From an uncultured bacterium (GTDB lineage: Bacteria > Patescibacteriota > Gracilibacteria > Absconditabacterales > Absconditicoccaceae), in NCBI GenBank assembly GCA_946408385.1, contig CAMJSB010000002.1, forward strand, positions 1 to 64,000: DNA of 64,000 nt. Reading direction: 5' to 3'. Every line of letters starts with the position of its first letter. The first letter of the stretch is position 1. Below are positions 28,433-36,530 of this stretch, piece after piece. Below the pieces are notes generated by a model. The model made no database searches and had not been told where the DNA came from. It worked only from the letters and a program-made list of their open reading frames with translations. The position numbers were made by a program, and so were the translations under genes.

Positions 28433-29143
28433 CTAGTTTTTCTTACAGAATAGGACTTTTACATATGCATTAGTAATATCAATATTCTCTTGATATTGAG
28501 GATTACAATTTTCATATCTATCCTTTCCATTTGCAACGTTTATAAGATAATCGCTATTTTTGAGTCCTTTACAAATCACACTCTCAGTTGCCCTAATTCA
28601 ATAAACCGGATAATTATCACCGTCCGATTGATTACTTCATATAAAACCACCAATCTCGTTAGTATTATTGATACGCACATATGAGTGAGCACTTTCATTA
28701 TCCCAATTTCCACTTCTTCCATAAGATGCCAGACTCTCAGAATATAGTGTATCTTTATAAATATGTGAATGAGGTGGTAGCTGATCAACGGTAAGTGTTA
28801 TACTGTTAGCTCATCACTTGCTTCCATATGATCATGTTCCTCCCATCAGAAATCTACCATCTGCCTCAGCATATCTAGTCCATCAACTTGGACATGTTGG
28901 TCCAGTAAATGCCATAATAGCTCATGCAGGTATAGCATTATTAGCTTGATTTTGAAGTTTGTTCATCAACATATTCCATTCATCTTCATCTAATATCTTA
29001 TCCGTAGATGAAGTCTTCCAGGCTGTATATGGACTAGATGTAGTCAGATTTGTAGCCGCATATACTACTAAAGAAAAAGTCATCATAAAAATAAAGGCTG
29101 ACAATACTGTCCATAATTTTCATGATTCTAGAATTTTTTTCAT
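28433..29143 (-). CDS. Secreted phage tail-collar-domain protein
   Basis: A 236-residue protein with an N-terminal hydrophobic signal (LSAFIFMMTFSLVVYA). Residues about 60-140 match the phage tail collar fold: IPAGAIMAFTGPTCPSGW, then ADGRFLMGGTGSYGSKGG, ITLTVDQLPPHSH, the last being the conserved PxHxH ending. Such domains trimerise at the tips of tail fibres. The rest is a Cys-containing C-terminal part. A signal peptide on a collar domain points to use as a cell-surface fibre part rather than in a virion. It follows the head-repeat adhesin gene by 26 bases in the same direction. Confidence 0.72.
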
Positions 29144-29169
29144 TTTATATTTTAATTAAATAATAAAAA

Positions 29170-31101
29170 CTAATTTAAATAATTTCCCTCATTACAAGTA
29201 GGATCAAAGTTTATAGGAAAACAATAAGGGAATCCATTACTCGAACAATGATGACACTGCAATGTTAAAAAACATCATTTCTTTACGGGTTCAGATATTC
29301 AATCTATCTTACAATCCCATGTATATTTACCATTACTATATCATGTATTCGTAGCTGTAGCTGGAGATTCGCACTTATAAACTTCTGTTTCATTACAGAA
29401 AGATGTTATTCGCTTACATCTACCAGAATCATAAAATCGATAATTAGAATCATCACATAAATATGCACATTTCTTTCAATTTGCCTCTGCAGCACTTGCA
29501 TATAATTTTCTTTCTGTATTCGCTGTAAGTCAGTTATCACTTCATGCCACTAATGTTGCATTATCTGGCGCTAGTCACGTACACTGATATACTGGCTCTA
29601 CACACTTACCTCCGCTCCATATATAACCTGTATCACACTTATATCCACACACTGATGCATCATACGACCACGACTTACTTGTTGGTGTCCATGTGCTTCC
29701 ATTCCATGTCTGTGTATATGTTCAATGTCATGGTTTTGCCTCTGCTAATGATGGTATATCTCATTCACAATTTGCTGTTCTTGTTTTAGCCTTGCAACGA
29801 CCTCAGTTCTGATGATCAATTTCGTATCCTGTTGTACATGTCCATTGACATGGTAACAAGTTATTTTCATCCAAATTATCATTTCCTTCCCAAACTTTAT
29901 TACCATTTCATACATAAGTACTACTTCATGTTACCACTCATACTCACCTAGGCTCCCTTCATCCGCAAGTTTTAACCGTTACATATCATCATTCAACACT
30001 ACCAGAACATCAGACAACCAATCCATCTTCAGTCTGACATGACCAATGTACTTTATTATCTTTAGTTACCAAATATGCTCATGTTCATTCTACTATTTCT
30101 CATTTTTTACATGATCATGAATATACTGCATATTGTCTACCACCAATATTTTTACCAACTTTTGTTACAGTATCTCCACACTCAGGTTCTAGACTCACAT
30201 CACATACACTCATACATCTACCCCTTCCAAACATAGAACTCCATCCAGTACCATCACAGCTACACATACACATTTGATTATTTTCAGATTCTACTACCTT
30301 CAATATTCATCATCATACTCCCCATCCGCATGCTACATTTTCTCCAGTTCTACCAACAAAAAGAATCATCGGTCATCATAATGTCAATTTAGCAAAACTA
30401 TGTGCCTTATCTACATTAATTACTACTCCACTCTGTGCCATTACAGCAAAAACATTATCTGAATCTAAATTAGCAGATTCTCTACCATCTGTCCAAAGGA
30501 ATGAACCATTAGCATCAACTTTAACTCATGATCACAATGCTACAGAATAATTTCCTTCTACCGAACTATTACTTCACATCACTACAGATCACGTACCTTC
30601 AATCACATTCTTAATTCATCAAATAATTACCGAATATAATGAACTCTTTCCATTAATATAATTTTCTATTCATCAGATAATCGTATTATAAGATCATCAC
30701 GTTATACTATTTCATTCTCATCATAAAATCGAATTATACATTCATCGTACACTATTGCCAGATCATCCCAGAATCACATCATATGATCATCCTTTTCTAT
30801 TTTTATATCATCATAAAACACTACTATAATCTCCACTCATATTTGGAGAATCTTGATTACCTTCTAATAATAAAAATCAACTATCAGCTTCTATTTTTAC
30901 TAGATTCCCATCCAAAAATTTTAATGTAGCTTCTGCTCAATTATTTCCTGTAAAGACAAATTTTACTTCATTTATATGCTGAATTGCATTATCCAAATCT
31001 GGAGATAAAATCTTTTCAGCAGCAGACACAAACATCAATCACAAACTAGATATACTAAATATTCATCACATAATAAGCAGTGTCTTTTTTGAAATTTTCA
31101 T
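29170..31101 (-). CDS. Head-repeat (YadA-like) adhesin with Cys-rich modules, copy 2
   Basis: A 643-residue exported protein with signal peptide (LLIMGGIFSISSLGLMF). Residues about 80-190 show regular head repeats: SSVLGGYKNRKGGSYD, VILGGSGNSVRGMYNS, ILGGEGNSITGGSYNT, IIGGIENYI, ending with SVALGSGVKVDANGSFLWTD, close to the beta-roll heads of trimeric adhesins. After that come Cys-rich modules, including the 375-bp block shared with 16137-18695. There is no membrane-anchor domain at the C-terminus. About half the glycines in the head are TGA, often as TGATGA pairs. Transcribed with the collar-domain gene from a consensus promoter. Confidence 0.78.
29269..29643 (-). repeat. 375-bp block shared with 16962-17336
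   Basis: Partner of the block in adhesin copy 1, with one visible mismatch and the same reading frame. Confidence 0.93.
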
Positions 31102-31141
31102 ATCTTTTTGTTTTAGGTTATAAAAAGTATTCCTCAGCTCA

Positions 31142-31169
31142 ATTATATCCAAAAAAAAAATCCTGTCAA
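31142..31169 (-). promoter_or_regulatory. Sigma-70-type promoter of adhesin copy 2
   Basis: Minus-strand TTGACA (31164-31169), 16-base spacer with a T10 run and TATAAT (31142-31147), about 40 bases before the ATG; nearly identical to the promoter at 18735-18762. Confidence 0.82.
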
Positions 31170-31298: not shown

Positions 31299-32027
31299 AT
31301 GTATCTCTTCTCTTTCAAACAGTTTGCATGACACGATAGAGTTTTTTCATCCAATCTTTCCATCTGAAAACCATGAGATTTAATTCAATGTGGATGAGAT
31401 TTTTTATTAAATCTTTGAGATGAAACTGCCTTTCCAGAACTAATAAGAACACAATTTGTCCCAAATTCACCCTACGAAGTAGTTTATCCAAAATTCTTTA
31501 ATCAAAATTTTCTTTCTCTACTTCACTGGATGGTGTATCATCGATATTCTACTTATAATAATGTTTTGAAATATTTCGTTTCATTTGAGATTCCTCAATT
31601 ATTAGCTCGTGAAGATAAGATAAAATGAAAAAATAAAAAACTGAATCTTTCCAATATTTCTATTCCATTCAACGAATCGAAGCAGAATTTAGTAATCATT
31701 CCAGATAATCGATCTCGTGAAAATCAACTTTCAGATTTTTTTTCGCAAGATTTTATTACTCACCTATATTCTACAGATACACAAAATCGTAAAGACAAAA
31801 ACCGATGGGAGATTAAAAAATCAAAAGTTTGAATCATTGTAGCCACTCAATCCGAAATTTTTCAACCATTTAATAATTTGTGAACAATTACATTTATTGA
31901 TTGATATAAACGATATTATCACAATCAGCAGGACCCTCGTTATGATATAGCAGAAGTTGTAAAAAAAATGAAAGGATTACGAGAATGTGACATTATAAAT
32001 TTGGAAAACAAAGGATTAATTTGTTAA
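31299..32027 (+). CDS. Truncated PriA-like (primosomal protein N') protein
   Basis: A 242-residue protein that follows the PriA layout only through its first helicase half. Residues about 45-85 resemble the PriA N-terminal DNA-binding domain (PELIRTQFVPNSPYEVVYP, then LLHWMVYHRYSTYNNVLKYF). Residues about 130-225 match PriA motifs Ia to II: LVIIPDNRSRENQLSDFF, HLYSTDTQNRKDKNRWE, KVGIIVATQSEIFQPFNNLG, then QQDPRYDIAEVVKKMKG. The Walker A loop GVTGSGKTEVY is missing (ISIPFNESKQN instead) and DEEH is replaced by FIDGYK, so it cannot be an active ATPase. The second helicase domain and zinc modules are absent; PriA is normally about 730 residues. The frame is intact. Confidence 0.66.
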
Positions 32028-32196: not shown

Positions 32197-34512
32197 ATGT
32201 CAGCACAAACATTGAATATTATCTATGATACAAATTATACAAACATCATTCATGATGGATGATTTGTCAATCATCAATTTACCAAAAAACTTTGATTTTG
32301 GGATTTATTATTTTGAAGTTTAGATTCTTGAAAAAAAGACACTACCAAATCTAAGGACACTAACAAGTGAGAACAATTACCTGATACAAAATCTCAATCT
32401 ATCCAACCAAATAGTAACGATTCTGCATCTACTCAAACAAACATTAATGAAATCACACAAAATCATGAAATTAGCAATTCATCAAACAATCCCATAGACA
32501 ATCCAGAAGATAAAAACCAAAAAAAGAAAAAAAACTGGATTGATTCTATGCTGGACAAAATTTTCTGAATAGATGAATGAAACAAAAAAAACAATAAAAA
32601 TGGGAAAAAATCTGACTCTAAATCCAATAACACAAAAGAGAATAAAGATGAAAATCCACAGACTGAACAAGAAAAAAAAGCTAATGAATTACGCGAACAA
32701 ATCAAAAAATTGTTAGAAATTCCTGATTCTGAGTATAAAGACAGTATGATTACATCAGATATGAGGAGATTTATCAAACAAGTCGATGAAGAATATACAG
32801 CAAATATTTCTGATTTTAAGTCACATATTGCTCCATCTTACCGAGAATACAAAAGTGACAGTACAAATATCAGTGGAATACTATGAAGAACATACTATAC
32901 ACAGAGATATCCTACATACATTGATGCACTATGGACTAGAGATTTGATGAATATGCACACAAAACGGGATATGTCATTTTTCATATATCCAGAAGATGAT
33001 TCAGCAATGCAAGCTATGCTCAAAAGAAAATCTACTCAACTAAGAGCGGAACTAAATGAAGCTATATGAAAATGAATTACCACAGACAAAGAAGTAGAAC
33101 AACAATATAGAGATGTAGAACTAATCAGAGAAAAATTAAGTACCAGAGAGGAGAGATACTTCGAGCTTTCCAATTATTTCACAATTTATAATACAGATGA
33201 AACAGCACTAAAAGAAGATGGAAAAAAATTTGAACAAAAAGTAAGTTGATATTGAGTATCTGTAAAAACAGCAAGTCATAGAATGGACGAATGAATGACT
33301 TCTACTTTACCTCTATGTATAGATGATTTGTGAATTAGTAGAAGTGCAGTAACATCATCTCTTGCATGAAGTTTTCCATTTATTTCCAACGATTTGGTGC
33401 AGAATACATGAATATTTTATGGATTAAATCTTCATACTTGATGATTAATTATCATGGATAGATTTAGCGACAAATTACCAAATATGAATAGTGTAATTTT
33501 AGCCACATCTTGAGCCTGAAAATCATTTACAGTTAAACTTGAAATTTTAAGATATTTATTAAACTGAATTGATATTATAGTTATTGATCCAGAAAATGAA
33601 TATAAAGATCTATGTGAAGCTGTATGAGGAACTTATATCAACATCGCTACAAATGCTCAACAATATATTAATCCTTTTGATCTTCCTCCAAAAATTGAAG
33701 ATGTAGAGTATGGAAAATGAGACCTTCTTCGTTCTCAGATTATGACATTAATCTGACTTATTCAAATTTTAATATGAAAATTAACCCCAGAAGAAGAAGC
33801 CATACTTGACAAAGCACTGCAAAATACATATGCTTTGCGTGGTTTTTCACTACAAGACGATAATTATGAATGAAAACAACCACCACTCATGGAAGATCTA
33901 ATGAATATATTAAACGGAATGGAATGATGAGAACAAATCTGATTACGTTTGAGTAAATATGTAACGTGAACTTTTGGAAAGTTATTTAATAATTATACAA
34001 ATGTAGATATCAATAATCGTATTACTGTATTTAGTATCCGTGATTTGGAGGATGCACTAAAAACTCCTGCAATGTATAATGTTTTAAATTTTATTTGGAC
34101 AAAAGTTAGATCAGCAAAACGTCAAAGACTTTTAGTTTGTGATGAAGCTTGGATTATGCTTCAGAATGATGTTTCTGCTAATTTTATGTTTAGTATGACA
34201 AAAAGAGCCAGAAAATACTGATTATGAATTACAACTATTTCGCAGGATATTGAAGACTTTGTAAGAAGTCCATACTGAAAGCCAATTGTATCAAACTCTT
34301 CAATCCAAATTCTTCTTAAACAATCTACTACTTCTATAAAATCATTAAATCAGCTTTTGTGACTTTCTGAAGCAGAACAACAAAAATTGATTTCATGTGG
34401 AGTATGAGAATGATTAATATTTGCATGAAATCAGCATATTGCCATCAAAATTGTAGCATCTCCTACAGAAAAAGATCTAATTACAACTGACGTTAAAAAG
34501 AAAAATTTATAA
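32197..34512 (+). CDS. VirB4/TraC-family conjugation-type ATPase
   Basis: A 771-residue ATPase. The first 170 residues are a low-complexity Asn/Lys/Ser region. A VirB4-like N-terminal domain follows, then the ATPase core: Walker A ATSGAGKSFTVKLEILRYLL (residues 436-455, with both loop glycines coded by TGA), DIIVIDPENEYKDL, the Walker B LLVCDEAWIMLQ, and TTISQDIEDFVRSPYGKPIV then NSSIQILLKQS, typical of VirB4/TraC. These hexameric ATPases drive type IV secretion pilus assembly and substrate transfer. It is followed by a membrane protein gene and a VirB2-like gene. Confidence 0.88.
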
Positions 34513-34533
34513 AATTTACATTAAACTTTTAGA

Positions 34534-35469
34534 ATGGAAACCGAAAAAAATATCATTTCATCAGAAGCTAAGCTATCAGCAATTGCTGGAGTGATGTTTT
34601 TTGCTCCATTTATAAAAAATAAACTAAAATCAGATTCTTCTTTTAGTCAAGAAGAAAAAGATTTTATTGAATGATATATCAAAGTATGATATACAAATAT
34701 ATTCCTACTTGTAATAGTTTTAGCATCAGCTATGACCGACATTTTCATAATCAATTGATTTTTACCATGGATTACAGTGATTGGCGGAATAATCATTTTT
34801 ATGATTTCATTATTTTCAATACTTGTTTGCACATATGATATAAGTATTTTTTTACCCGATGAACATTTAAAACAAAATATTCAGCATAAAAGTCAGATTT
34901 TGAAAGCATATACACCAATCCTAAATTTCTTTTCTTGGTTTCATCAAAATAATTACGATATGCCATATCGATGGTTAAAAGAATCCATCCTATTGTGGAC
35001 AATTTTTATTTTTTGAACTCTCTTATTCAAGACTCCTTTTTGAATTGGAGTACTAATTTTTATAGCTCTCAGAATCCTTCTTCTTTTAATAAATATAGAT
35101 ATAATCCCTATCAATATCAAAAAAGCCATAAATTCAATATTTTCATGCAATCCATGAGAAATTACAGCTTATATTTTTGCTCCCATAACATCAAAGATTA
35201 AAAAATCTGATTACAAAACAGTTTTACAAGACAAAAAACTATGATATATGCAATGACAAAAACTCTGAATCTGAATTATTCTCCAGTATATTATGTTTAT
35301 TGGTATTTTATTTTTATTACATCGTTGAATAACTTTTTCATTAAGTAATATCATAATATTCATTGCAATCATCTTACGAATTATCAGAATTATAATATTC
35401 TATATATACAAAAAATCCTTACCTAGAATTCCAATCTTATCTGAGATAATATCTTTTATATTCCACTAA
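34534..35469 (+). CDS. Polytopic membrane protein of the VirB4 cluster
   Basis: A 311-residue protein with about six TM segments in two groups (residues 50-110 and 155-300) separated by a cytoplasmic-looking loop rich in His/Gln/Asn. It lies 21 bases after virB4 and 44 before the VirB2-like gene. Its position suggests an inner-membrane component such as a PrgI/VirB3- or VirB6-like subunit, but no family motif is seen. Confidence 0.5.
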
Positions 35470-35513
35470 AATAACCATTTATCATTTATATACTTTATCA
35501 TAATATTACTAAA

Positions 35514-36530
35514 ATGAAGACTATCAAAAAAATCTTATTAACTTCTATATTATCCCTATTTGCATTAGCAAATCTATCTTTATTTAGTATCACATCTGCA
35601 CAAAATGCATATGATGAAATTCTTAACAGGACTACAGATTCAACATCATTAAAAAGTGCTATAGACTGAGGAGATGTTGTTAAAGATTCAAAATGAGCAG
35701 ATTTATTTAACAAACAGGTTGATGAAATTATCGGTTATGTAATCAATTTTTTTATTGTAATATGAATTGCTGTAGCATTCATATGATGATATAAAATTAT
35801 GACATCAGACAAAGAAGAGGCTACAAAAGAATGAATTAGCCTGATAATTTTCGGTATATTATGAATAATTATCATGATATCAGCCAAATTTCTTGCAACA
35901 TCACTCGTGGGTGATAATGGAATAATAACAGATGAATTCGCCACTGTTGAAAACAATCACACACCGAACTGAATAGAATTCGCAAGCAACTTATACAACA
36001 AAATAATGTATCCTTTTATAAAACTTATACTATATTTCGTAGTTGGTATATTATTCTTTATTATGGCTGGTAAAGTTATATGATTTGTTACCGCAACCGA
36101 TGATTCTACCAAGAAAAAAGCAGCATGAATCATTATTCGATGTGTAGTTTGAATTTTGATAGTTATGTGATCCAAACAAATTGTAGAAGCTGTAATTTGA
36201 AATCAAAACGAGGTTTTAAATAGAAATGCAACTCGAATAAGATGATGATCTGAAACATGATGAATGTGAGAAGAAATGCTAGAATTCGAATCCGTACCTA
36301 TCATCGCTCAGATTATTAATTGGGTAATGTGATTGACTATGTTTATAGTCCTTGTATTAATAATTATACAATGATACAAAATTCTTACTAAACCAGATGA
36401 TCCTAAAACAAGAGAAGGCATGAAAAAAAGTATAATATACATACTTATCTGAATTTTAGTAATATGAGCAGCCTATGTGATTTCAAATACTCTTGTTTTA
36501 AACAACATCGAAATCGAAGCGACGCAATAA
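35514..36530 (+). CDS. VirB2/TrbC-like pilin-type membrane protein with two repeats
   Basis: A 338-residue protein with a signal peptide (LLTSILSLFALANLSLF, SAQNA). It contains two or three TM pairs of the TrbC/VirB2 pattern, with short loops TSDKEEATKEGISL, TATDDSTKKKAAG and TKPDDPKTREGMKKS, each between two hydrophobic helices. The recurring loop (KxxDxxxxKxG) is what VirB2-type pilins show between their two helices. A VirB2 is usually one such unit of about 100 residues; here three are fused. Probable pilus or channel part of the VirB4 system. Confidence 0.62.

Follow-up and report, generated by a model that had tools for sequence, protein, structure and literature searches.

A PriA divided between two unlinked genes and devoid of ATPase motifs in an uncultured member of the Absconditabacteria

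The DNA studied here (the window) comprises the first 64,000 nucleotides of contig C2 (CAMJSB010000002.1) in the assembly GCA_946408385.1 of an uncultured Absconditicoccaceae bacterium, which measures 1.09 Mb in 22 contigs and is 88.6% complete. The gene under study, designated priA-N, encodes a 242-residue product that corresponds to the front half of the replication-restart protein PriA, and the rear half (priA-C) is encoded on another contig of the same genome. An earlier note, made from the sequence of the window, had described the product as a decayed PriA-like protein, without ATPase motifs and apparently kept open by selection for a non-catalytic role. The PriA origin, the loss of motifs, the selection and the non-catalytic reading have all stood, whereas the notion of a decayed, lone remnant has not: the gene is under purifying selection, and the note had missed both the second gene, in which the loss of catalysis is matched, and a split common to a whole clade.

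The frame of priA-N contains nine in-frame TGA codons and, translated with table 25, no internal TAA or TAG, as had been reported before; its 242 codons remain open only when TGA is taken as glycine. The product matches the PriA profiles NF004066 (E 8e-10) and TIGR00595 (E 2.7e-6, positions 22-132 of 509), as well as the sequences of solved PriA (E 3e-8). Its motifs follow the order of PriA, with a start resembling the 3'-DNA-binding domain (3'BD), a motif-Ia-like LVIIPDN, the segment VATQSEIFQPFNNLG, FIDGYK at the place of DEEH, and QQDPRY. As had also been noticed, Walker A and DExH are missing, and the C-terminal end precedes helicase domain 2; in addition, motif III is absent, and so is the winged-helix domain of full-length PriA, missing together with the Walker A P-loop at a short linker (residues 106-128). 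A Pfam search gave no match, and the score of 26-30 bits lies below the curated whole-protein cut-off of TIGR00595 (230 bits). The resemblance to PriA is not accidental, since the AlphaFold model is a confident one (predicted local distance difference test, pLDDT, 88; predicted template modelling score 0.87), and its residues 1-239 align by VIA to residues 4-358 of solved PriA (Z 18.4, 224 residues).

A second departure from the standard code affects how these proteins are read. Reassignment of CGA and CGG to tryptophan in Absconditabacteria has been published (PMC8629427), and in line with it these codons occupy tryptophan or aromatic columns at all loci of f1, the family of the source genome. 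priA-N carries five CGA codons, very probably encoding Trp, so that FIDGYKRYY reads FIDGYKWYY, and rescoring on this basis improves the matches to NF004066 (5e-11) and TIGR00595 (1.5e-7) by about 4 bits. Across the N-halves of the family, 38 of 85 CGA and 9 of 17 CGG codons coincide with columns in which other codons most often encode Trp, and the remaining ones mostly in Tyr or Phe columns; CGT/CGC and AGA/AGG fall mostly in columns of Arg, Lys and other polar residues. At conserved columns of rpoB, CGG corresponds to Trp in three of three cases. Annotation by table 25 alone misreads CGA and CGG as Arg in this family.

No full-length priA was recovered when the source genome, at its 88.6% completeness, was searched with TIGR00595; besides the two halves, the only matches were RecG and a UvrB-like fragment, both identified by sequence. 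The best match was priA-C, whose product carries helicase domain 2, the rear of the two RecA folds, along with the zinc-cysteine region and the C-terminal domain. It covers positions 166-501 of the profile (E 2e-54, 185 bits, again below the 230-bit cut-off, each product being only about half of PriA) and contains a PriA_C domain, and its AlphaFold model (pLDDT 89) aligns by VIA to residues 386-731 of solved PriA (Z 26.2, 318 residues). The Z values of both halves are well above those of the Mfd, UvrB and DEAD-box rows (about 10 and about 13). Given the complementary ranges of PriA to which they align, the two genes jointly span this protein, except that the winged helix, the segment with the P-loop and some 25 residues following domain 1 are missing (Table 1). 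Both halves are PriA homologues by descent and fold, one comprising 3'BD and RecA1 and the other RecA2, the cysteine region and the C-terminal domain, which does not imply activity.

Table 1. Features of the split priA in the source genome (window positions unless a contig is given)
Feature	Position	Strand	Evidence
priA-N CDS, N-terminal half of split PriA, 242 amino acids (TGA=Gly, CGA/CGG=Trp)	31299..32027	+	open frame; PriA profile matches; dN/dS 0.05-0.12; short frame kept in nearly all family genomes
priA-N 3'-DNA-binding domain, residues 1-105, conserved WMVYxxYSxYxxV segment	31299..31613 (boundary approximate)	+	high-pLDDT AlphaFold model; structural alignment from PriA residue 4; N-half sequence alignment
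priA-N short low-confidence linker, residues 106-128	31614..31682	+	pLDDT falls to 62; alignment gap at GVTGSGKT relative to motif-intact split PriA
priA-N helicase domain 1 (RecA1) remnant, residues 129-239, motif Ia to PRY segment	31683..32015	+	TIGR00595 positions 22-132; alignment to PriA up to residue 358
priA-N degenerate Walker B/DEEH position, I-D-G-Y-K	31896..31910	+	aligned column holds DEEH in the N-halves of f14 and f3
priA-C, 348 amino acids	contig C9:5905-6951		best TIGR00595 match in source genome

Catalytic motifs were counted in all split families by simple patterns and checked by alignment. In f1, Walker A, DExH and motif III are each found in 0 of 30 N-halves and motif VI in 0 of 31 C-halves, the single match to the motif V pattern among the latter (ATSLVSSG in G014) being unconvincing; the eight-cysteine pattern is present in 31/31, and all eight zinc cysteines are invariant in the C-half alignment. 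The set required for ATP-driven unwinding (Walker A, DExH, III, V and VI) is thus absent from this family, a loss that predicts no ATPase activity. In the split family f14, relatives that use code 25, all three N-half motifs are present in 16/16 proteins, while the C-halves hold motif V in 17/17 and motif VI in 16/17, and in f3 (G026) the catalytic motifs are likewise all intact and divided between two proteins. By contrast, family f21 has them in none of 10 N-halves and none of 9 C-halves; its profile retrieved 8 further N-halves from f21 and f23, all motif-free, and both f23 C-halves are devoid of motifs V and VI. In every split family, the N and C genes share one state, active or dead, as expected for one composite ATP site extending over two chains. 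In one f14 genome (G064, 99% complete), motif VI of the C-half is altered (GRGRN) and no N-half was found by two N-half profiles, which makes it a candidate for an early step towards loss.

Most of the genomes compared are metagenome assemblies. Of 25 f1 genomes, the first protein searches detected an N-half in 23 and a C-half in 24. A profile then retrieved the N-half of G018, so that the sole exception is G023, which is 65% complete and is without both halves; the N-half match in G008 is fragmentary and lies at the end of a contig. Nearly every f1 genome examined carries the two halves as unlinked genes, on different contigs or far apart, as in the closed genomes G015 (397 and 591 kb) and G055 (N-half at 729 kb, C-half at 274 kb), and in the single contig of G011 they are about 6 kb apart on opposite strands. 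The C-half coordinates of G055 are those of CP006913.1, candidate division SR1 bacterium RAAC1_SR1_1, which identifies f1 as Absconditabacteria/SR1. In the rest of the class, a single frame of 640-870 residues usually encodes PriA. One fused PriA of about 626 residues (L066 in G027, f4) has no Walker A, DEEH or motif V/VI and seems to have become a pseudohelicase independently, without ever being split. Several f5 genomes, such as G050, G080, G119, G132 and G170 (93-99% complete), give only weak TIGR00595 matches (E ~1e-13 to 1e-16), likely to other helicases, and a complete loss of PriA in part of this family is possible.

Both genes are under purifying selection. Pairwise ratios of nonsynonymous to synonymous substitutions (dN/dS) among G000, G003, G004 and G006 are 0.05-0.12 for the N-half and 0.02-0.035 for the C-half, although they were obtained by a simple counting method at dS values of about 0.7-1.4, so that the absolute ratios are rough. 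priA-N is 80-87% identical within close congeners and its frame can be recognised in about 30 f1 genomes, and 12 columns are invariant in an alignment of 19 diverse sequences.

The reading favoured here, which has a good probability of being correct, is that priA-N represents the front half of a once-split PriA and that both halves form in trans a motorless scaffold for fork recognition and primosome assembly. The two proteins would bind across the old interface between domains 1 and 2, rebuilding a PriA-shaped complex in which priA-N would recognise the 3' leading-strand end of an abandoned fork, and priA-C, through its cysteine region, domain 2 and C-terminal domain, would bind lagging-strand single-stranded DNA (ssDNA). 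In E. coli PriA, the zinc/cysteine region, helicase domain 2 and the C-terminal domain frame an ssDNA pore, and the cysteine region docks PriB (PMC10175261); in f1, all three pore-forming parts belong to the C-half and the 3'-end-binding part to the N-half. This complex may help to reload DnaB without ATP hydrolysis or unwinding, and the likely function in f1 is an ATP-independent recognition of forks combined with recruitment of the machinery that loads DnaB. All 16 f1 genomes searched for DnaB have it. For DciA, a candidate partner in helicase loading, no f1 genome exceeded the cut-off of the profile, which is short and makes this absence uninformative. Assembly of the halves is very probable in f14, because its conserved catalytic residues sit on two chains and work only if these chains meet, and f1 would hold the same two-part body by inheritance, shared with f14. 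For the clade as a whole, the balance leans towards a split PriA that acts as two chains in trans, in which case f14 would have a working two-chain superfamily 2 helicase with a composite ATP site, and f1 and, separately, f21 plus f23 an obligate ATP-independent restart scaffold.

Several points weigh against this proposal. Contact between the halves is deduced from their co-occurrence and their matched motif state; the distances of N- and C-halves do correlate (rho 0.82), but this is expected from shared ancestry alone and is not used as evidence of contact. Moreover, the winged helix and about 25 residues around motif III are found in neither half, meaning that the complex cannot be a complete PriA, and dS values of about 0.7-1.4 make the absolute dN/dS values a rough measure.

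The alternative that survives best, although unlikely, is that the halves no longer cooperate and have separate roles, priA-N as a small protein that binds DNA ends and priA-C as one that binds zinc and ssDNA. This would agree with the lack of linkage between the genes, with their differing rates (mean distances of 0.60-0.80 for N and 0.43-0.74 for C), and with the fact that neither f1 half keeps a catalysis that would force assembly. However, no near-complete f1 genome was found with one half alone, the sister family f14 conserves catalytic residues that work only when both RecA domains meet, and the two halves are alike in being active or dead. That priA-N is a decaying pseudogene, open by chance, is very improbable: the loss of Walker A, DExH and motif III and a deficit of about 100 residues relative to the front part of full-length PriA would fit such decay, but the low dN/dS, the conservation of the frame in f1, the invariant columns, and the confident PriA fold of the model speak against it. 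Equally hard to sustain is the idea that an ordinary full-length priA was missed in the incomplete source assembly and that the halves are duplicates, given that none of 37 f1 genomes searched with TIGR00595 has a match above the family cut-off and that the C-half search in f1 yielded only frames of 340-380 amino acids, including in the single-contig genomes G011, G015 and G055. A non-catalytic, DNA-structure-binding role, as first suggested for priA-N, is still the best reading.

Regarding the surroundings of priA-N, no adjoining gene is conserved beyond close congeners, and the gene context is consequently uninformative on its function. Directly downstream (32197-36530) lie type IV secretion-like genes (a VirB4/TraG-type ATPase and a type IV secretion system pilin), which accompany priA-N only in close congeners and do not form a conserved partner. 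Upstream (28433-31152, - strand), two TGA-rich surface-protein-like frames of 236 and 660 amino acids are found, the longer of which shows weak matches to a YadA head and to beta-roll repeats.

An rpoB tree of 30 genomes (1155 columns) places all split genomes in one clade (support 100/96), within which f3, represented by the single genome G026, branches first, followed by f1 beside f14 and f21/f23. Since f14 is nested next to the dead f21 plus f23, catalysis has been lost at least twice. One PriA would have been split in the common ancestor of this clade, within the Absconditabacteria/Gracilibacteria lineage, and its halves now lie at unrelated places; the winged helix would have been lost after the split, and catalysis later, separately in f1 and in f21 plus f23. 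If f3 is placed correctly, the split would precede the stop-codon reassignment. In f3, no in-frame TGA was seen and the code is standard. Just outside the split clade, with weak support (81/63), stands f12, which has a fused PriA and reads TGA as Gly; in its genome G035 (L061), this holds at 49 of 53 conserved rpoB columns. Two changes of the code, a reversion in f3 or a misplacement of f12 would each explain this pattern. Also outside the clade, G032 (f9) has a motif-intact PriA in two frames on two contigs (L057 and L058), which could reflect either a separate splitting event or a break in the assembly; it was set aside as a second split, as it comes from one fragmented metagenome-assembled genome with stop codons within the N-half profile match.

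Whether replication restart needs the helicase motor of PriA is an old question. Motor-dead mutants of E. coli PriA still support primosome assembly, and the Deinococcus protein is without ATPase activity. Actinobacterial PriA is also annotated as being without helicase motifs. The clade described here offers a natural series, from fused and active through split and active to split and dead (the latter at least twice), in which native proteins can be used to tell the scaffold role of PriA apart from that of its motor. Placing the two RecA domains of a motor helicase on chains encoded by different genes would be an unusual architecture, and no report of a split between the motor domains was found in the part of the literature that was covered on PriA in Gracilibacteria, Absconditabacteria and candidate-phyla bacteria. 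Small halves such as these are easily overlooked or misnamed in annotation, especially under this unusual genetic code.

When set end to end, the f1 halves show the domain order of canonical PriA (E. coli/Klebsiella; TIGR00595, PDB 6DGD, 4NL4 and 8FAK), with recognisable 3'BD, RecA folds, eight zinc cysteines and C-terminal domain. Unlike canonical PriA, they are encoded by two unlinked genes, lack the winged helix, Walker A, DExH and motifs III, V and VI, and in the source genome both score below the curated PriA cut-off. The split PriA of f14 and f3 resembles that of f1 in the interdomain region of the cut, in its unlinked genes, in the homology of the halves and in belonging to one clade, but its catalytic motifs are intact and divided over two proteins, which probably constitute a working helicase in trans; f3 differs further in its standard code and in the winged-helix segment that is still present. 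An ATP-site variant of PriA, K230A, is the form used in the E. coli DnaB-loading assay (PMC10175261). PriA pseudohelicases are already known: the protein from Deinococcus radiodurans, shown by experiment to be one, does not hydrolyse ATP, yet binds ssDNA and forks with normal affinity (PMC4504706). Judging from its sequence, the PriA of f1 would resemble it in having lost the ATPase residues; in Deinococcus, however, the protein is a single chain whose Walker A/B motifs carry point changes, whereas in f1 the gene is split and the P-loop segment has been deleted outright.
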